Shown: one piece after another, positions 18,085-24,951 of the stretch
Position numbering within the stretch: position 1 is the stretch's first letter
How the letters are laid out: each line of letters begins with the position of its first letter
From: Methanomicrobiales archaeon HGW-Methanomicrobiales-2
GTDB taxonomy: Archaea; Halobacteriota; Methanomicrobia; Methanomicrobiales; Methanoculleaceae
Assembly: GCA_002839645.1 (NCBI GenBank)
Contig: PGYL01000003.1
Coordinates: 1 to 64,000 of the forward strand
DNA length: 64,000 nt
Direction: 5' to 3'
Program-made: the position numbers and the translations under genes
Notes under the pieces: generated by a model
What the model saw: the letters and a program-made list of their open reading frames with translations, nothing else
What the model was told of the DNA's origin: nothing
Database searches by the model: none

Positions 18085-19560
18085 TTACTTCATGTTCTTC
18101 CGCACATACACGTCGACCGCTGCCGTGATCGCCGCGATATGCTTCCCCTGCCGGAGCGATGCCGCGAGCGTCTGCATACGCGCCTCCTCCTCGTGGAGGT
18201 AGCGGTTCAGGCTCGTTGTGATATGCTCCTCCTGCAGGAAGTGCGTGTGCGTGTCGCCGGCGATGAAGTGGGCGTTATGCATGATCGCGTAGTGGAGCGG
18301 GAGCGTCGTCTTCACGCCCAGGATGACATACTCGTAGATGGCCCGGCGCATCCGCTGGATCGCCTCCTCGCGGTTGGAACCCAGAGCGCAGAGTTTGGAG
18401 ATCATCGAATCGTAGTGCGGGGGGATCGTGTAGCCCATGTGGATACCCGAGTCGACCCGGATTCCCGGCCCTCCCGGGGACCGGTAGCGGACGATCTTGC
18501 CCGGATCGGCGGTGAAGTTGTTGAGCGGGTCCTCCGCGTTGATCCGGCACTCGATCGCGTGCCCCCGGATGCTGATATCCTCCTGGCCCATCGCGAGGTC
18601 CTCGCCGGCGGCGACGGCGATCTGCTGCTTCACGATATCGATCCCTGTGATGAACTCCGTGATGGTGTGCTCCACCTGGAGCCGGGTGTTCACCTCCATG
18701 AAGTAGTAGTTGCCGCTCGCGTAGAGAAACTCCACCGTGCCGGTGTTCTTGTAGTTCGCCGCCTTTGCCGCGGTGATAGCCGACGCCGTCATCTGCTCCC
18801 GGAGAGCGGGCGTCATGATCGGACAGGGCGCCTCTTCGAGCAGTTTCTGGTGCCGGCGCTGGATAGAGCACTCGCGGTCGTAGAGGTGGACGGTGTGCCC
18901 TTTCGCGTCGGCAAGGACCTGGATCTCGATGTGGCGCGGCTTCGTGAGGTACTTCTCCACGAGGATCGTCGGGTCACCGAAGGCAGACTCCGCAATCCGC
19001 CTCCCCTGCTCGATCGCCTCCTCGAGTTCTCCCTCGTTTTCGGCGATATGCATCCCGATACCGCCGCCGCCGGCACTCGCCTTCACGATCACCGGATAGC
19101 CGATCTCGGCGGCGACCTTCTTCGCCGCATCGACGCTGGTGACGCCTTCGGGCGTGCCCGGAAGGACCGGGACACCGGCCTCGCGCATCATCTGCTTCGA
19201 CCCGATCTTCGAACCCAGCGCCTCGATCGTCTTCCACGAAGGCCCGATGAACGTCAGGCCTTCGTCCTCGACCAGCTTCGCAAACCCGGAGTTCTCGGCG
19301 AGGAACCCATACCCCGGGTGAATCGCCTCGGCCCCGGTCTTCCTCGCCACATCGCAGATCCGCTCCTTGTTGAGGTAACTCTTGGACGGGTGCGCCTCCC
19401 CGACACAGAACGCCTCGTCGGCGTACTTGACGTGGAGTGCATTACTGTCCGGCTGGGAGTAGATCGCGACCGTGTCGATCCCCAGCTCCCGGCAGGCACG
19501 CATAACCCGGATGGCGATCTCACCCCGGTTGGCGATCAGAATCTTATCAAAGTACTTCAT
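18085..19560 (-). CDS. pycA: Pyruvate carboxylase subunit A (biotin carboxylase)
   Basis: Biotin carboxylase of 491 residues that carboxylates biotin on PycB with ATP and bicarbonate. In methanogens this makes oxaloacetate for the incomplete TCA cycle. The N-terminus KILIANRGEIAIRVMRACRE and the CIHPGYGFLAE-type segment are present. So are the ATP-grasp glycine loop KASAGGGGIGMHIAE, the biotin-carboxylase loop YDRECSIQRRHQK and the MEVNTRLQVEHTITE metal site. It follows pycB by 14 bases in one operon. The stop is at 18085, 72 bases from the tRNA. Confidence 0.96.
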   Translation of the reverse strand: MKYFDKILIANRGEIAIRVMRACRELGIDTVAIYSQPDSNALHVKYADEAFCVGEAHPSKSYLNKERICDVARKTGAEAIHPGYGFLAENSGFAKLVEDEGLTFIGPSWKTIEALGSKIGSKQMMREAGVPVLPGTPEGVTSVDAAKKVAAEIGYPVIVKASAGGGGIGMHIAENEGELEEAIEQGRRIAESAFGDPTILVEKYLTKPRHIEIQVLADAKGHTVHLYDRECSIQRRHQKLLEEAPCPIMTPALREQMTASAITAAKAANYKNTGTVEFLYASGNYYFMEVNTRLQVEHTITEFITGIDIVKQQIAVAAGEDLAMGQEDISIRGHAIECRINAEDPLNNFTADPGKIVRYRSPGGPGIRVDSGIHMGYTIPPHYDSMISKLCALGSNREEAIQRMRRAIYEYVILGVKTTLPLHYAIMHNAHFIAGDTHTHFLQEEHITTSLNRYLHEEEARMQTLAASLRQGKHIAAITAAVDVYVRKNMK

Positions 19561-19574
19561 CGCCTAAACAGCCC

Positions 19575-21329
19575 TCACTCAATGACCATCAGCACGTCGC
19601 CGTTCTGCACGACGTCCCCGGCATCCACGAAGATCTCCGAGACAGTACCGTCACGGGGACTGCGGATGGGGTTCTCCATCTTCATTGCCTCGAGGACGAT
19701 GAGGGTATCTCCCTTCTTGACGGTGCTGCCCCGCGGGAACATCACTTTGAGGACCATGCCCTGCATGTTGCTCTTGACCCCGCCGGCGACCTCCCCGCGG
19801 GGTATCCTCTCTTTGGCCGACGGAGTGCACACCGAAGCCCCGACCGAGTCTCCCTCTACGGTGACGATCCGGACCGAGAAGATCTCGCCGTCCACCTCCA
19901 CCTCCATGGAGCGGGGGAAGTCTGCAACTCCCACCGGTCCGGCGGGTGCCGCCGCTTCAGGGATCACTTCGGCCTGGCGCTCGCCCCGGAGGAACGACGG
20001 AGCGATGCTCGGGTAGAGGATGTAGGTGAGAACATCTTCGTCCCTGGTGACCAGACCCTGTTCCACCGCCTGCGCTCGCATCTGCTCGTAGATGGGCTCA
20101 AGAAGGTCTGCCGGGCGGACCGTGACCGGCTCCTCGTCGCCGACGATCAACGCCCGCACCTCGGGGCTGATCGGGGCCGGAGAACGACCGTAGAGGCCGA
20201 GAACGTAGTCCTTCACCTCCCTTGTCACGTTCCGGTAGCGCTCCCCGTCCATGAGGACGTTGAAGACCGCCTGGGTACCGACGATCTGGCTCGTCGGCGT
20301 CACGAGCGGCGGGTAGCCGAGGTCCTTCCTCACCCGGGGAACCTCATGGAACACGTCGTCCAGGCGATCGAGCGCATTCTGCTCCTTTAACTGGGAGACA
20401 AGATTGGAGATCATGCCGCCCGGGAGCTGGTAGATCAGCACGTCCGAATCGACCCGGTCCGTGATCGCGGAGAAGAGCGGTTCGTACTTCTCCCGCATCT
20501 CCCGGCAGATGTTCCTCACATTCCGGAGCGTTATCAGGTCGATGCCGGTATCGCGGGGCGTCCCGAGGACACTTGCAACGATGCTCTCCGTCGGAGGCTG
20601 GGAAGTCCCGAAGGCGAACGGCGACATCGCCGTATCAAGGATATCCACGCCCGCATCGATCGCCGCCTGGTAACTCAGGGGCGCGACGCCGCTCGTGCAG
20701 TGGGAGTGGAGGCAGACCTTGACGTCCGCCGTCTTCTTGATCCCGGCGATCAGGTCGCGGGCATCGTGAGGCATGATCAGGCCGGCCATGTCCTTGATAC
20801 AGATCGAGTCGCAGCCAAGCGTATAGAGCTCCTGCGCCATATCGATGAACGTCGCCACAGAGTGGACCGGACTCGTCGTGTAGGATATCGCACCCTGCAG
20901 GTGCCCCCCGACGTTCTTGACCTCCTCCATCGCCTTTTTCATGTTGCGGATATCGTTCAACGCATCAAAGACCCGGAAGATATCGACCCCGTTTCGTGCC
21001 GACGCTTCCACAAACTTCTCCACCACATCGTCGGGATAGTGCCGGTAGCCTACGAGATTCTGGCCTCGCAGGAGCATCTGGATAGGGGTGTGCTTCAGCT
21101 CGGCCTTCAGCATCCGGAGACGATCCCAGGGATCGTCGTTGAGGAACCTGATGCAGCTGTCAAAGGTCGCTCCTCCCCAGGCCTCGACAGAGAAGAAACC
21201 TGCCTGATCGATGGCCCGGGCAAGAGGGAGCATGTCCTCAGTCCGGAGTCGGGTGGCGATAAGCGACTGATGCGCGTCCCTAAGCGTGGTATCGGTAATA
21301 TTGAGTGAATCAAATTTGGCAGCACACAT
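19575..21329 (-). CDS. pycB: Pyruvate carboxylase subunit B (carboxyltransferase plus biotin carrier)
   Basis: A 584-residue subunit that transfers carboxyl from biotin to pyruvate. The carboxyltransferase TIM barrel begins ITDTTLRDAHQSLIATRLRT and includes LRGQNLVGYRHYPDD and LHSHCTSGVAPLSY. The C-terminal biotinyl domain carries LEAMKMENPIRSPRDG, in which the Lys between the two Met is biotinylated, presumably by the nearby BirA. Start ATG 21329 (MCAAKFDSLNITD) has GAGGTG nine bases upstream; an earlier in-frame ATG at 21386 lacks a good site. A TATA-like element (TTTTTATATTAG, about 21391-21403 on the minus strand) lies inside the end of ecfT, so pycBA has its own promoter. Confidence 0.95.
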   Translation of the reverse strand: MCAAKFDSLNITDTTLRDAHQSLIATRLRTEDMLPLARAIDQAGFFSVEAWGGATFDSCIRFLNDDPWDRLRMLKAELKHTPIQMLLRGQNLVGYRHYPDDVVEKFVEASARNGVDIFRVFDALNDIRNMKKAMEEVKNVGGHLQGAISYTTSPVHSVATFIDMAQELYTLGCDSICIKDMAGLIMPHDARDLIAGIKKTADVKVCLHSHCTSGVAPLSYQAAIDAGVDILDTAMSPFAFGTSQPPTESIVASVLGTPRDTGIDLITLRNVRNICREMREKYEPLFSAITDRVDSDVLIYQLPGGMISNLVSQLKEQNALDRLDDVFHEVPRVRKDLGYPPLVTPTSQIVGTQAVFNVLMDGERYRNVTREVKDYVLGLYGRSPAPISPEVRALIVGDEEPVTVRPADLLEPIYEQMRAQAVEQGLVTRDEDVLTYILYPSIAPSFLRGERQAEVIPEAAAPAGPVGVADFPRSMEVEVDGEIFSVRIVTVEGDSVGASVCTPSAKERIPRGEVAGGVKSNMQGMVLKVMFPRGSTVKKGDTLIVLEAMKMENPIRSPRDGTVSEIFVDAGDVVQNGDVLMVIE

Positions 21330-21382
21330 CGAATTTTGCACCTCGAAGGGCTGAGAAGATATCGATAAAGCCTCTAAAAAAT

Positions 21383-22036
21383 TCATCCTACTAATATAAA
21401 AACGTCACGAAGAGGCAGACAGGATAAAACCCCGGGAATTATGGCTGTTAGGAAAGCCGGAATGTCTCGCGGGTCTGCACTGAACCGGGGGCAGATCCGA
21501 CCTCCGATCGCGTATCCCCGTACCACAAGCAGCCGGGCTATCTCGTCGGACCGCCGGATCTGCGTGACGATGAGGGTGACGGCGAGCGGCACGATCGAGC
21601 GGGCACCGGGCCGGATTCCCTTCAGCGCCATTGCAACCCGCATCTGCTCGATCTCCTGCCGGAGCACGGCGAGGCTCGTAAGCCCCATCTCGGCAATCAG
21701 CCCGATCTCGAACCCCACCCGGTTTCCGAGGGCCCAGACCGCCACGGCAAGCACCTCGCCGTCCTCTGTCCCGGCATACGTCCATGCGGCGAGGAGGAGG
21801 AGCGCGAGCATCCGGATCAGGTAGGAGAGCCCTGCCCCGCCCCCCCACGCGGAGAGGAGCGCTGTTGCGACGATCATCGCGATGAGGGGGAGAAACACCC
21901 CCAGACGCGGAAGGACCTTCGTGCGCGGCGTAAAAATCAGCCACCAGACCAGGACGGCGACGGCTCCCGTCGTGCTTGCAAACGCCGCCAGCGAGAGGAC
22001 CACGGCGGCAAGAAGCCTCAGCCGCGGATCCTGCAT
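21383..22036 (-). CDS. ecfT: ECF transporter transmembrane T component
   Basis: A 217-residue membrane protein of the CbiQ/EcfT family with about five hydrophobic segments and the cytosolic Ala-Arg-Gly-type coupling motifs (RVAMALKGIRPG and LLVVRGYAI). With the two ATPases and BioY it forms an energy-coupling factor importer, here almost certainly for biotin given the neighbours. It overlaps the 3' end of the upstream ATPase gene by 19 bases and is the last gene of the bioY operon. A plausible start is the ATG at 22036 (MQDPRLRLLAAVVL). Confidence 0.88.
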   Translation of the reverse strand: MQDPRLRLLAAVVLSLAAFASTTGAVAVLVWWLIFTPRTKVLPRLGVFLPLIAMIVATALLSAWGGGAGLSYLIRMLALLLLAAWTYAGTEDGEVLAVAVWALGNRVGFEIGLIAEMGLTSLAVLRQEIEQMRVAMALKGIRPGARSIVPLAVTLIVTQIRRSDEIARLLVVRGYAIGGRICPRFSADPRDIPAFLTAIIPGVLSCLPLRDVFILVG

Positions 22037-22716
22037 AGCGCCTCCCGGGCATCGGCCAGTCTGATATTCTCCGGGCGAGCCCCCTCATCTAAGGCGTACC
22101 TGAGGTAGGGCGGGGCGTGCCGCCACCGCGGAATCGCACCAGGAACGCTGCCGCAGGCCGTCAGGCTCCCGGCTTCCATCTCCCAGAGGGCATCCACCCG
22201 GGGGAGGACCGCGCGCTCGTGCGAGAAGATGATGGTGATCCCCTCCTTCCTCTCCTCGATCATCCTGCAGGCCTTCCTCTTCGCGGTGCAGTCCAGGGAG
22301 CTGAACGGTTCGTCCAGCATCAGCAGGTCCGGGTTCCGCATGAGCGTGCAGGCCAGTACCAACCGTTTGAGTTCGCCGCGGGAGAGGTGGAACGGGTCGT
22401 CGTCCCCCCGCCGGAGAAGGTCCGCCTGCGCGAGCACGTCCTCCGGCGCAAGTCCCCAGGACCTGATCTCTTCGGCAACGGTCGGGCAGGTGATCTGGTG
22501 TTCGGGGAACTGCAGCAGAAGCAGGGCCGACGAGACGTTGTGCTGCCGGACGGCGCCGCTTTCTGGAAGAAGCAGTTTCGCGAGCAGAAGGGCGAGCGTC
22601 GATTTTCCGCTTCCCACCGGCCCGCTGACCAGGTGTACGCCCTCTTCAAAGGTGCCGCTGCCCCGGAGGCTGAACGGACCGCGGGAGAAGAGGAGGTCCT
22701 CGAGGTCGACCCTCAC
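22018..22716 (-). CDS. ecfA2: ECF transporter ATP-binding protein
   Basis: A 232-residue ABC ATPase. Walker A GPVGSGKST, Q-loop LQFPEHQI, a degenerate signature HLSRGELKRL, Walker B LLMLDEPFSSLD and the H-loop FSHE are all present. It powers biotin uptake with the paired ATPase and EcfT. GTG 22716 was chosen because it overlaps the preceding stop (GTGA); the frame continues upstream but only as a shadow of the neighbour. The C-terminal tail after about residue 190 is short, as in EcfA2-type subunits. Confidence 0.9.
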   Translation of the reverse strand: MRVDLEDLLFSRGPFSLRGSGTFEEGVHLVSGPVGSGKSTLALLLAKLLLPESGAVRQHNVSSALLLLQFPEHQITCPTVAEEIRSWGLAPEDVLAQADLLRRGDDDPFHLSRGELKRLVLACTLMRNPDLLMLDEPFSSLDCTAKRKACRMIEERKEGITIIFSHERAVLPRVDALWEMEAGSLTACGSVPGAIPRWRHAPPYLRYALDEGARPENIRLADAREALCRIRG

Positions 22717-23384
22717 CGGCGGACCCTCCACATCGTGGGGTAGAAGCAGGTCTCCTCGAGCCTCGCGAAGACCTCTTCGGGCGTGCCGTGGTGGCGGACT
22801 GCACCACTCTCCATGAAGAGGAGATAGTCCGCACGAGCCGCGGTATCCATCGACTGCGTGCACCAGAGCACATGGGCCGCCGTGGCCTCCTGCACGACAC
22901 GGCCGACGCGTTCTGCCGTCACGCCATCCAGGTGCGAGTCGGCCTCGTCCAGGACAAGCACCTCGGGGTCGCCGGCACAGGCCGCAGCCAGGGCGACGAG
23001 GGCCTTCTCACCCCCGGAGAGGGCCGAGACCTTCGCATCAAGGAGGTGGGGGATGCCGACCGTCCGTGCAGCCGCTCTGACCAGTTCGTCGGTCTCCCTG
23101 CACGGTCGGTGACGGAACCGGGGAGTCGATGCGATCTCGTCGTATACCCGGGAGAAGAGGAGCGTCCGGTCGGGGAACTCCCCCACCCACCCGACCTTCA
23201 CGGCAGACGGCGGACGGTCGAGGAGCCGGACCGATCCTGCTTCGGGCTCTTCGATGCCTGAGCAGACCGTAAGAAGCGTCGTCTTGCCGCTCCCGTTCGG
23301 CCCGATCACGGCGATATGGCGCGCGCCCACTGTAAGATCGGGGATATCGAGCAGCCGGTGTCGCAGACCGGTAATGCGGATCAT
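22713..23384 (-). CDS. ecfA1: ECF transporter ATP-binding protein
   Basis: A 223-residue ABC ATPase with Walker A GPNGSGKTT, signature LSGGEKALVAL, Walker B VLVLDEADSHLD and switch region. It is the second ATPase of the biotin ECF module. The start at ATG 23384 (MIRITGLRHRLLD) overlaps the bioY stop in ATGA. It differs from the classical EcfA in having Ala after Glu in Walker B (DEAD rather than DEPF), which still keeps the catalytic Glu. Together with bioY, ecfA2 and ecfT it makes a full transporter. Confidence 0.9.
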   Translation of the reverse strand: MIRITGLRHRLLDIPDLTVGARHIAVIGPNGSGKTTLLTVCSGIEEPEAGSVRLLDRPPSAVKVGWVGEFPDRTLLFSRVYDEIASTPRFRHRPCRETDELVRAAARTVGIPHLLDAKVSALSGGEKALVALAAACAGDPEVLVLDEADSHLDGVTAERVGRVVQEATAAHVLWCTQSMDTAARADYLLFMESGAVRHHGTPEEVFARLEETCFYPTMWRVRR

Positions 23385-23881
23385 GCCACCCGCTTTCCTA
23401 TGGTGTACGCGGCCGTAACCTTCACGACCTCGCCGACGGCGAACGGGGCGACCCCGAGCAGGACCGCCTGGGGAAGCGAGAGCGATGCCGACCAGGCGAG
23501 CCATGCGACGCCTGAGAGGTAGATCACGCCGGTCGCTGCGATCAGGCCTGCGACCCGGGACTTCGGCGATTCATGCTCGTAGGCGAGCCCGACGATGAGG
23601 GCGGCAGGGATAAAACCGAGCAGGAACCCCCCCGTGGGCCCGAGGAGCACCCCGAGGCCCGCCGTGCCGTTATGAAAGACCGGGAGGCCTGCCGCTCCGA
23701 AGAGGACGTAGAGAGCGACGGGAATCACCGCGTACCGCTTCATGACGATCCCGGAGAGGAGCACGAAAAGGGTCTGGAGCGTGAGTGGGACCGGGGGAAG
23801 CGGGATGGAGATCCAGCTCCCGGCAGCGATCAGCGCGATGAGCGTACCGCTGTAGGCGAGGATCCGGGCACGGTGTATCAT
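23381..23881 (-). CDS. bioY: Biotin transporter substrate-binding subunit BioY
   Basis: A 166-residue membrane S-component that binds biotin. It has six hydrophobic stretches with the BioY hallmarks: SWISIPLPPVPLTLQTLFVL near the N-terminus, then GTAGLGVLLGPTGGFLLGF. Start ATG 23881 (MIHRARILAYSG) lies about 31-38 bases downstream of a TATA box, so the mRNA is probably leaderless or nearly so; an upstream ATG at 23926 would lie inside the operator. It is the first gene of bioY-ecfA1-ecfA2-ecfT, with an adjacent BirA-type operator. Confidence 0.93.
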   Translation of the reverse strand: MIHRARILAYSGTLIALIAAGSWISIPLPPVPLTLQTLFVLLSGIVMKRYAVIPVALYVLFGAAGLPVFHNGTAGLGVLLGPTGGFLLGFIPAALIVGLAYEHESPKSRVAGLIAATGVIYLSGVAWLAWSASLSLPQAVLLGVAPFAVGEVVKVTAAYTIGKRVA

Positions 23882-23910
23882 GGGGATAACAACAGGTTGG
23901 AGGGTTGGCG

Positions 23911-23951
23911 ATAAATATCTTGTCAACCGGAAAAATATGGGGCGGTTGACA
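23911..23951 (-). promoter_or_regulatory. bioY promoter with a BirA-operator-like palindrome
   Basis: TGTCAACC (23921-23928) and GGTTGACA (23944-23951) form a perfect inverted repeat with a 15-base spacer. The bacterial and archaeal BirA operator is TTGTAAACC, 14-16 bases, GGTTTACAA, so both half-site type and spacing fit. On the minus strand the proximal half directly abuts a TATA box (ATATTTAT, 23912-23919). Bound BirA would therefore block TBP/TFB. It lies 14 bases from the 3' end of birA. Confidence 0.75.
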
Positions 23952-23964
23952 GGGCCCGGAGGCT

Positions 23965-24951
23965 CTAGAGCTGGAAACAGTCGCCGGCGATAACGCGCTC
24001 TATCTTCCCGTTATCCTTCCGGACAATCAGGGCGCCGTGGTCATCGATATCGATGGCCTCTCCCTCGAAGGTCTTGTTAACGGTCTTGATGGCCACCCGG
24101 CGGTCGAGCGTCAGGGAGAGGCTCTTCCACTCACGGATGATGGAATCATACTCGCCATCCTCGAGCTGCTGATAACGCAGTTCGAACTCCCGCAGGATCC
24201 GGGTAAGAAGCGCCACGCGGTCGACCGGGCGGCCGACCTCCGCCTCGAGTGAGGTCACGGTCTCCTGCAGGTTCAGCGAGAGTTCTGCAAGAGAGATGTT
24301 CGCGTCGATCCCGATCCCGAGGAGGCCGTAGTGGACCGTATCAGCCTCTGCAGCAAGTTCCAGGAGCAGCCCGGCGACCTTCTTATCCCCGACGAAGATG
24401 TCGTTGGGCCACTTGATGAGCACGCTGATGTTGTACTCCTTCCGGATAGCACGGGCAATCGCGACCGACCCGGCCATGGTGATCATGAAGAGGTGATCGA
24501 GCGGGACCTTCGGTTTTAAGACGATGGTGGCCCAGATGCCGCCGGCAGGCGAGACCCAGGCGCGTCCAAGCCTTCCCACCCCGCCGGTCTGCTGTTCGGC
24601 GATGATCACCATGCCGTGCAGTTTCTCAGGGTCGGTCTCGCCGGCAAGTTTCTTCCCGATCCAGCTCGTGGAGGCGGTACTGTCGAAGTGGCGGATCTGT
24701 CGTCCGATGAACCGGGTACGGAGGTGCTTATGGATCTCGTACGGAAGGAGCCTGTCGGTCTTCGTCTCAAGGCGGTAACCTTCCGCCCGCGACGAGGATA
24801 TACCGTATCCCAGCCTCCGGAGTTCGCGTATCTGTTTCCAGACAGCCGATCGGGTGATACCAAGTTGCTCTGCAATCCTCTCACCCGATACCGGGCCGGG
24901 CGACTCTTCGAGAATCTTCAGTACGTTGATTGCCGTATCCTTCATAGCCAT
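23965..24951 (-). CDS. birA: Bifunctional biotin-protein ligase / biotin operon repressor
   Basis: A 328-residue BirA of the regulatory (group II) type. An N-terminal winged helix (residues 1-60, SGERIAEQLGITRSAVWKQI) precedes the catalytic domain with the GRGRxGR-like loop TGGVGRLGRAWVSPAGG, KWPNDIFVGDKKVAGLLLEL and a small C-terminal SH3-like domain. It makes biotinyl-5'-AMP, biotinylates PycB and, when biotin is plentiful, would repress bioY through the palindrome just downstream. The gene overlaps DUF2111 by one base (TAATG). Confidence 0.94.
   Translation of the reverse strand: MAMKDTAINVLKILEESPGPVSGERIAEQLGITRSAVWKQIRELRRLGYGISSSRAEGYRLETKTDRLLPYEIHKHLRTRFIGRQIRHFDSTASTSWIGKKLAGETDPEKLHGMVIIAEQQTGGVGRLGRAWVSPAGGIWATIVLKPKVPLDHLFMITMAGSVAIARAIRKEYNISVLIKWPNDIFVGDKKVAGLLLELAAEADTVHYGLLGIGIDANISLAELSLNLQETVTSLEAEVGRPVDRVALLTRILREFELRYQQLEDGEYDSIIREWKSLSLTLDRRVAIKTVNKTFEGEAIDIDDHGALIVRKDNGKIERVIAGDCFQL

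Follow-up and report, generated by a model that had tools for sequence, protein, structure and literature searches.

A predicted BirA operator before bioY and a second candidate BirA site before the PEP carboxylase gene in Methanomicrobiales

The window analysed here is a stretch of 64,000 nucleotides from Methanomicrobiales archaeon HGW-Methanomicrobiales-2 (contig PGYL01000003.1). The genes of interest all lie on its minus strand:

23965..24951, minus: birA, biotin protein ligase with an N-terminal winged helix, the proposed repressor (Pfam HTH_11, BPL_LplA_LipB and BPL_C over cut-off)
23381..23881, minus: bioY, biotin-specific transporter subunit, the proposed regulated gene (Pfam BioY PF02632, E 4e-38)
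22713..23384, minus: ECF-type ATPase gene 1 (Pfam ABC_tran), overlapping the end of bioY
22018..22710, minus: ECF-type ATPase gene 2 (Pfam ABC_tran)
21383..22036, minus: putative EcfT transmembrane subunit, assigned from position and hydrophobic sequence only
19575..21332, minus: pycB, pyruvate carboxylase subunit B with biotin carrier (NCBIfam NF006761), start shifted to Met19 of the longest ORF
18085..19560, minus: pycA, pyruvate carboxylase biotin carboxylase subunit (NCBIfam NF006406 over cut-off, and its place beside pycB)

For bioY we used the ATG at 23879-23881 in place of the TTG start of the listed ORF, which is not conserved. The putative EcfT had no match in Pfam or NCBIfam. The model matched by pycA is itself named acetyl-CoA carboxylase biotin carboxylase subunit, and the PycA call rests on the adjacency to pycB. 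The latter probably starts at Met19 (ATG 21330-21332), because an in-frame TGA precedes this codon in relatives. The initial annotation had not noted that pycB and pycA follow bioY and the ECF genes; of 232 Methanomicrobiales genomes, 223 have a pyruvate carboxylase, typically about 2 kb beyond bioY. The stretch before pycB (21333-21386, minus strand; TTTTGAGAGGCTTTAT...) is non-coding, AT-rich and conserved in Methanoculleus and the genera g3 and g34, and could serve as an independent promoter or leader. A weak test, on an alignment of six rows of which two were mis-cut, gave no support for a consensus RNA structure in this stretch. Directly upstream of birA lies a DUF2111 gene (PF09884, 24951-25397, minus strand), which is possibly co-transcribed with it.

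Three features occupy the space between birA and bioY:

23921..23951, no strand: predicted BirA-type operator (distal slot), TGTCAACC-N15-GGTTGACA, a perfect palindrome in a conserved slot that fits the published consensus
23911..23920, minus: putative TATA-like box of bioY, GATATTTATC, assigned from its sequence and a T-rich element in relatives
23879..23910, minus: proximal operator slot in decayed form, CGCCAACC...TATCCCCATG, which extends over the bioY start codon; the slot is intact in many relatives

The letters at 23921-23951 are TGTCAACC GGAAAAATATGGGGC GGTTGACA, with two perfect 8-bp arms and a spacer of 15 bp. The initial annotation had drawn the palindrome from 23911 to 23951, at a distance of 14 bases from birA. 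A palindrome is indeed present, but positions 23911-23920 are the TATA-like GATATTTATC, and the gap to birA, which ends at 23965, is 13 bases. The annotation was right that the palindrome abuts the putative TATA box of bioY, as the box adjoins position 23921. Read along the minus strand, the birA stop is followed by these 13 bases, the palindrome and directly then the TATA-like box, and 39 bases separate the palindrome from the bioY ATG.

The proposal that half-site type and spacing are those of the known BirA operator agrees with the published BirA signal. The consensus is TTGTAAACC-[N14/15]-GGTTTACAA, to which TGTCAACC-N15-GGTTGACA is close, and the window palindrome has nearly the form of the Geobacter sites, TTGTcAACC-[N14]-GGTTgACgA (PMC545781). 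The exact pattern occurs once in the 2.78-Mb genome and a reversed control pattern not at all. As five perfect 8-bp inverted repeats with a spacing of 14-16 are found in the window, which is about the number expected by chance, the palindrome alone is uninformative, and it could be a chance repeat like the others. Its match to the BirA consensus and its retention in relatives speak against this: among the 39 genomes of the family that have bioY (genus Methanoculleus), 38 keep a site before this gene with at most two mismatches. We therefore rejected a chance palindrome, whose probability we put at practically nil. The count also covers the refuting condition named in the initial annotation, that relatives sharing the gene order would have lost the palindrome: within the family, all but one genome have kept it.

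Comparison of the Methanoculleus bioY promoters revealed two slots that flank the TATA-like box, one or both of which are occupied, a layout that the initial annotation had missed. The distal slot begins some 69 bases ahead of the bioY start codon (ATG), on the upstream side of the T-rich TATA-like element; the proximal one begins some 29 bases ahead of that codon and ends inside it (GACATG). In relatives that have both, a T-rich TTTTTAT element lies between them, at the same place as the TATA-like box of the window. Occupancy varies by species, being distal only (as in the window), proximal only, or both; at least seven Methanoculleus species have both slots with at most one mismatch (e.g., L016, L035), and an intact proximal TGTCAACC-N14-GGTTGACATG is found in many relatives (e.g., L005, L008, L016, L035). 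Other families have a single site at the bioY start. The half-site there is TGTCAACC in family f5, CGTCAACC in most of f6 and in f3-g12, and TGTTAACC in f3-g13, and changes between families have usually been made in both arms. Most f3-g13 genomes (e.g., L219, L220), with half-sites TGTTAACC/GGTTAACA, have two BirA-type matches apiece, which might reflect a second ligase or an altered specificity. No such palindrome was found before bioY in the genomes examined of Methanofollis (f4), Methanospirillum (f6-g36), f6-g25, f6-g26 and f2.

A scan of the genome for further sites, suggested in the initial annotation, yielded one other convincing BirA-type site, which that annotation had missed. It reads TGTCGACC-N14-GGTTGACA (contig C35, 49056-49085), with one mismatch and a 14-bp spacer, and precedes a gene for a full-length archaeal-type PEP carboxylase (PEPC; TIGR02751, E 5e-183). 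Matches with three mismatches and one asymmetric match elsewhere in the genome look like chance. Across the order, TGTNAACC-N14-16-GGTTNACA has matches in 63 of 232 Methanomicrobiales genomes, with few control matches, and among the matches listed all exact ones precede bioY or PEPC.

PEPC genes were recognised in the gene comparison by their start (...MSTQHPDN, archaeal-type PEP carboxylase). The PEPC site is present or absent together with the bioY site: 33 of 35 PEPC promoters have a site within 300 bases in lineages with a bioY site and 0 of 21 in lineages without one, counts that are not independent, as the genomes are related. Counted per genus, eight have both sites, three have neither and none is mixed, and dinucleotide shuffles lead to an expectation of 0.02 sites on average. 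One of the two exceptions is Candidatus Methanoculleus thermohydrogenotrophicum (G034), which has lost the bioY site too; the other concerns Methanoculleus sp. UBA303 (G018), in which a second copy of PEPC has its site slightly further upstream. This latter genome has two PEPC genes, on contigs C5 (L077) and C26 (L078), with a BirA-type site before each, and a possible short ORF separates site and gene in the C5 copy. Outside Methanomicrobiales, none of 62 named PEPC loci had a site that passed the scan, so the PEPC link looks restricted. PEPC is also absent from many Methanoculleus genomes, and a bypass of pyruvate carboxylase by this enzyme is therefore not general.

The site before PEPC bears on whether the bioY palindrome acts as RNA. 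Lying just 3' of birA, the palindrome could be the terminator of this gene or a leader structure of bioY, and when transcribed it folds (-13 kcal/mol, z -2.2). However, the sequence recurs ahead of PEPC, a long way from birA, and it is the letters of the half-sites that are conserved, with GGTTTACA right arms, which break one base pair, recurring in relatives. A T-tract terminator was not found at the palindrome, nor was an Rfam match. The hairpin reading, which we regard as very improbable, was rejected on account of the weak fold and the lack of a terminator and of an Rfam family. Taken as a DNA element, the palindrome is almost certainly a BirA operator, judged by half-site, spacing, position before a biotin gene, conservation and the winged-helix BirA encoded nearby.

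The site at PEPC could be bound by BirA and nevertheless serve another purpose there, such as activation, or its regulatory effect could be negligible. Its position relative to the TATA-like element differs among Methanoculleus, Methanogenium and the genus g34, as such a reading would allow. We consider it unlikely, since the PEPC half-sites are strongly retained while the spacers diverge, and G034 lost its PEPC site together with the bioY site. Repression at both genes remains the preferred reading.

To relate the sites to their putative regulator, we compared the BirA proteins. The winged helix ascribed earlier to the birA product is borne out by an N-terminal match to Pfam HTH_11 over the cut-off. 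Residues 9-324 align with Staphylococcus aureus BirA (6apw, E 1.5e-40), and the protein was also aligned with 1bia. It has the winged helix-turn-helix, catalytic and C-terminal domains of a group II biotin protein ligase and exceeds the cut-off of TIGR00121. With the repressor-domain model TIGR00122 it scored 52.5 bits (E 3e-14) against a curated cut-off of 70, which is a database threshold and not a biological criterion, and its helix-turn-helix passes Pfam HTH_11.

In lineages that bear the sites, the recognition helix of BirA is of the SRSAVWK or RSAVWK type. It is replaced in Methanofollis (e.g., PGSSVAR), and of three f2 genomes compared the domain is rewritten in two and missing in one, as its reading frame was extracted; the repressor function has apparently been lost in f2. 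L215 (G046, f2) appears to encode only the ligase part, with 270 aa as extracted, and the other helix-turn-helix domains of f2 are strongly diverged. In G034, which lost both the bioY and the PEPC site, the helix reads RSVVWK (A to V), and in the Methanoculleus genome G012, with weak bioY sites, it reads QSAVWK (R to Q). Small helix changes in G016, G020 and G037 are nevertheless accompanied by retained sites. Methanospirillum lacks sites at both bioY and PEPC although its helix is kept (SKSAVWK). It is an exception, as the BirA helix-turn-helix has changed or disappeared in most lineages that have no sites; this association supports the link to BirA but does not prove it.

The palindrome might instead be bound by some other protein that regulates biotin or oxaloacetate metabolism. 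PEPC is not a biotin gene, and Methanospirillum has a similar BirA helix without sites. Such a regulator is decidedly unlikely, however, as the palindrome has the published BirA signal and adjoins birA, and as the helix-turn-helix of BirA is changed or missing in most lineages that lack the palindrome.

In bacteria, BirA carrying biotinyl-5'-AMP dimerises and binds its operator once the biotin acceptor protein is saturated. PEPC and pyruvate carboxylase form the same product, and PEPC needs no biotin. We infer that BirA binds the archaeal sites with the same ligand and to the same effect, repression in the biotinyl-AMP-bound state being carried over from bacterial BirA. Very probably, BirA with biotinyl-AMP represses both biotin uptake through bioY and PEPC, a biotin-free bypass of pyruvate carboxylase. 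When biotin is plentiful and all PycB is biotinylated, BirA would keep its biotinyl-5'-AMP, dimerise and occupy the operator, thereby reading the biotinylation state of PycB. On the distal site it would cover the edge of the bioY TATA-like box, and at the proximal slot of those relatives that have one it would lie over the transcription start and the start codon, so that archaeal TBP, TFB and RNA polymerase would be unable to start. This would repress bioY, the ECF genes and perhaps read-through into pycBA, and pycB may have its own promoter besides. At its separate locus, the PEPC gene would be repressed by the same BirA complex. Under biotin shortage, PycB that still lacks biotin would consume biotinyl-AMP and BirA would leave the DNA, so that biotin uptake would be turned on together with the route to oxaloacetate that needs no biotin. 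BirA is likely to be a two-target switch in part of the Methanomicrobiales, through which PEPC replaces or supplements pyruvate carboxylase when biotin runs short.

If this is true, a vitamin-sensing ligase and repressor controls an enzyme that does without the vitamin and can stand in for the ligase's own substrate, and in methanogens common in digesters a vitamin signal is linked to which of two enzymes forms oxaloacetate. This would suggest a simple reason why some methanogens retain both PEPC and pyruvate carboxylase, and would provide a testable case of a bacterial-type ligase/repressor acting on archaeal promoters. The two slots, repeatedly gained and lost around one TATA-like box within a single genus, form a natural series for the placement of an archaeal repressor.

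BirA sites in archaea were reportedly proposed by Rodionov, Mironov and Gelfand in 2002, and the bioY site is therefore of an already known kind. Like the biotin regulon of bacterial BirA, the system described here combines a bifunctional ligase/repressor with a TTGTAAACC-N14/15-GGTTTACAA palindrome before a biotin transport gene. It differs in that its promoter is archaeal, with up to two sites that flank a TATA-like box, and in having PEPC as a proposed second target. In Lactococcus lactis, the winged-helix BirA1 binds a palindrome over the bioY1 promoter, as observed by gel shift (PMC4861984). The combination of a winged-helix BirA and a palindrome in the bioY promoter is shared with our locus, where binding is predicted, whereas L. 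lactis has a bacterial -35/-10 promoter, the half-site GTTAAC and no PEPC in the system (PMC4861984). In Corynebacterium glutamicum, the biotin level shifts the balance between biotin-dependent pyruvate carboxylase and biotin-free PEPC as sources of oxaloacetate, as we propose here; the route there appears to be a different one, as the change was seen in the level of biotin-bound pyruvate carboxylase and the abstract mentions no BirA operator at PEPC (PMC11457263). The two-slot layout and control of PEPC by BirA are, as far as could be searched, new: open-access papers yielded neither such a layout nor any link between BirA and PEPC. A vitamin-controlled choice of isoenzymes is known from the B12 riboswitch that controls MetE against MetH. 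There, as would be the case here, vitamin shortage leads a sensor to turn on a vitamin-independent enzyme; in Methanomicrobiales, the sensor would be a protein repressor instead of a riboswitch, the vitamin biotin instead of B12, and the product oxaloacetate instead of methionine.
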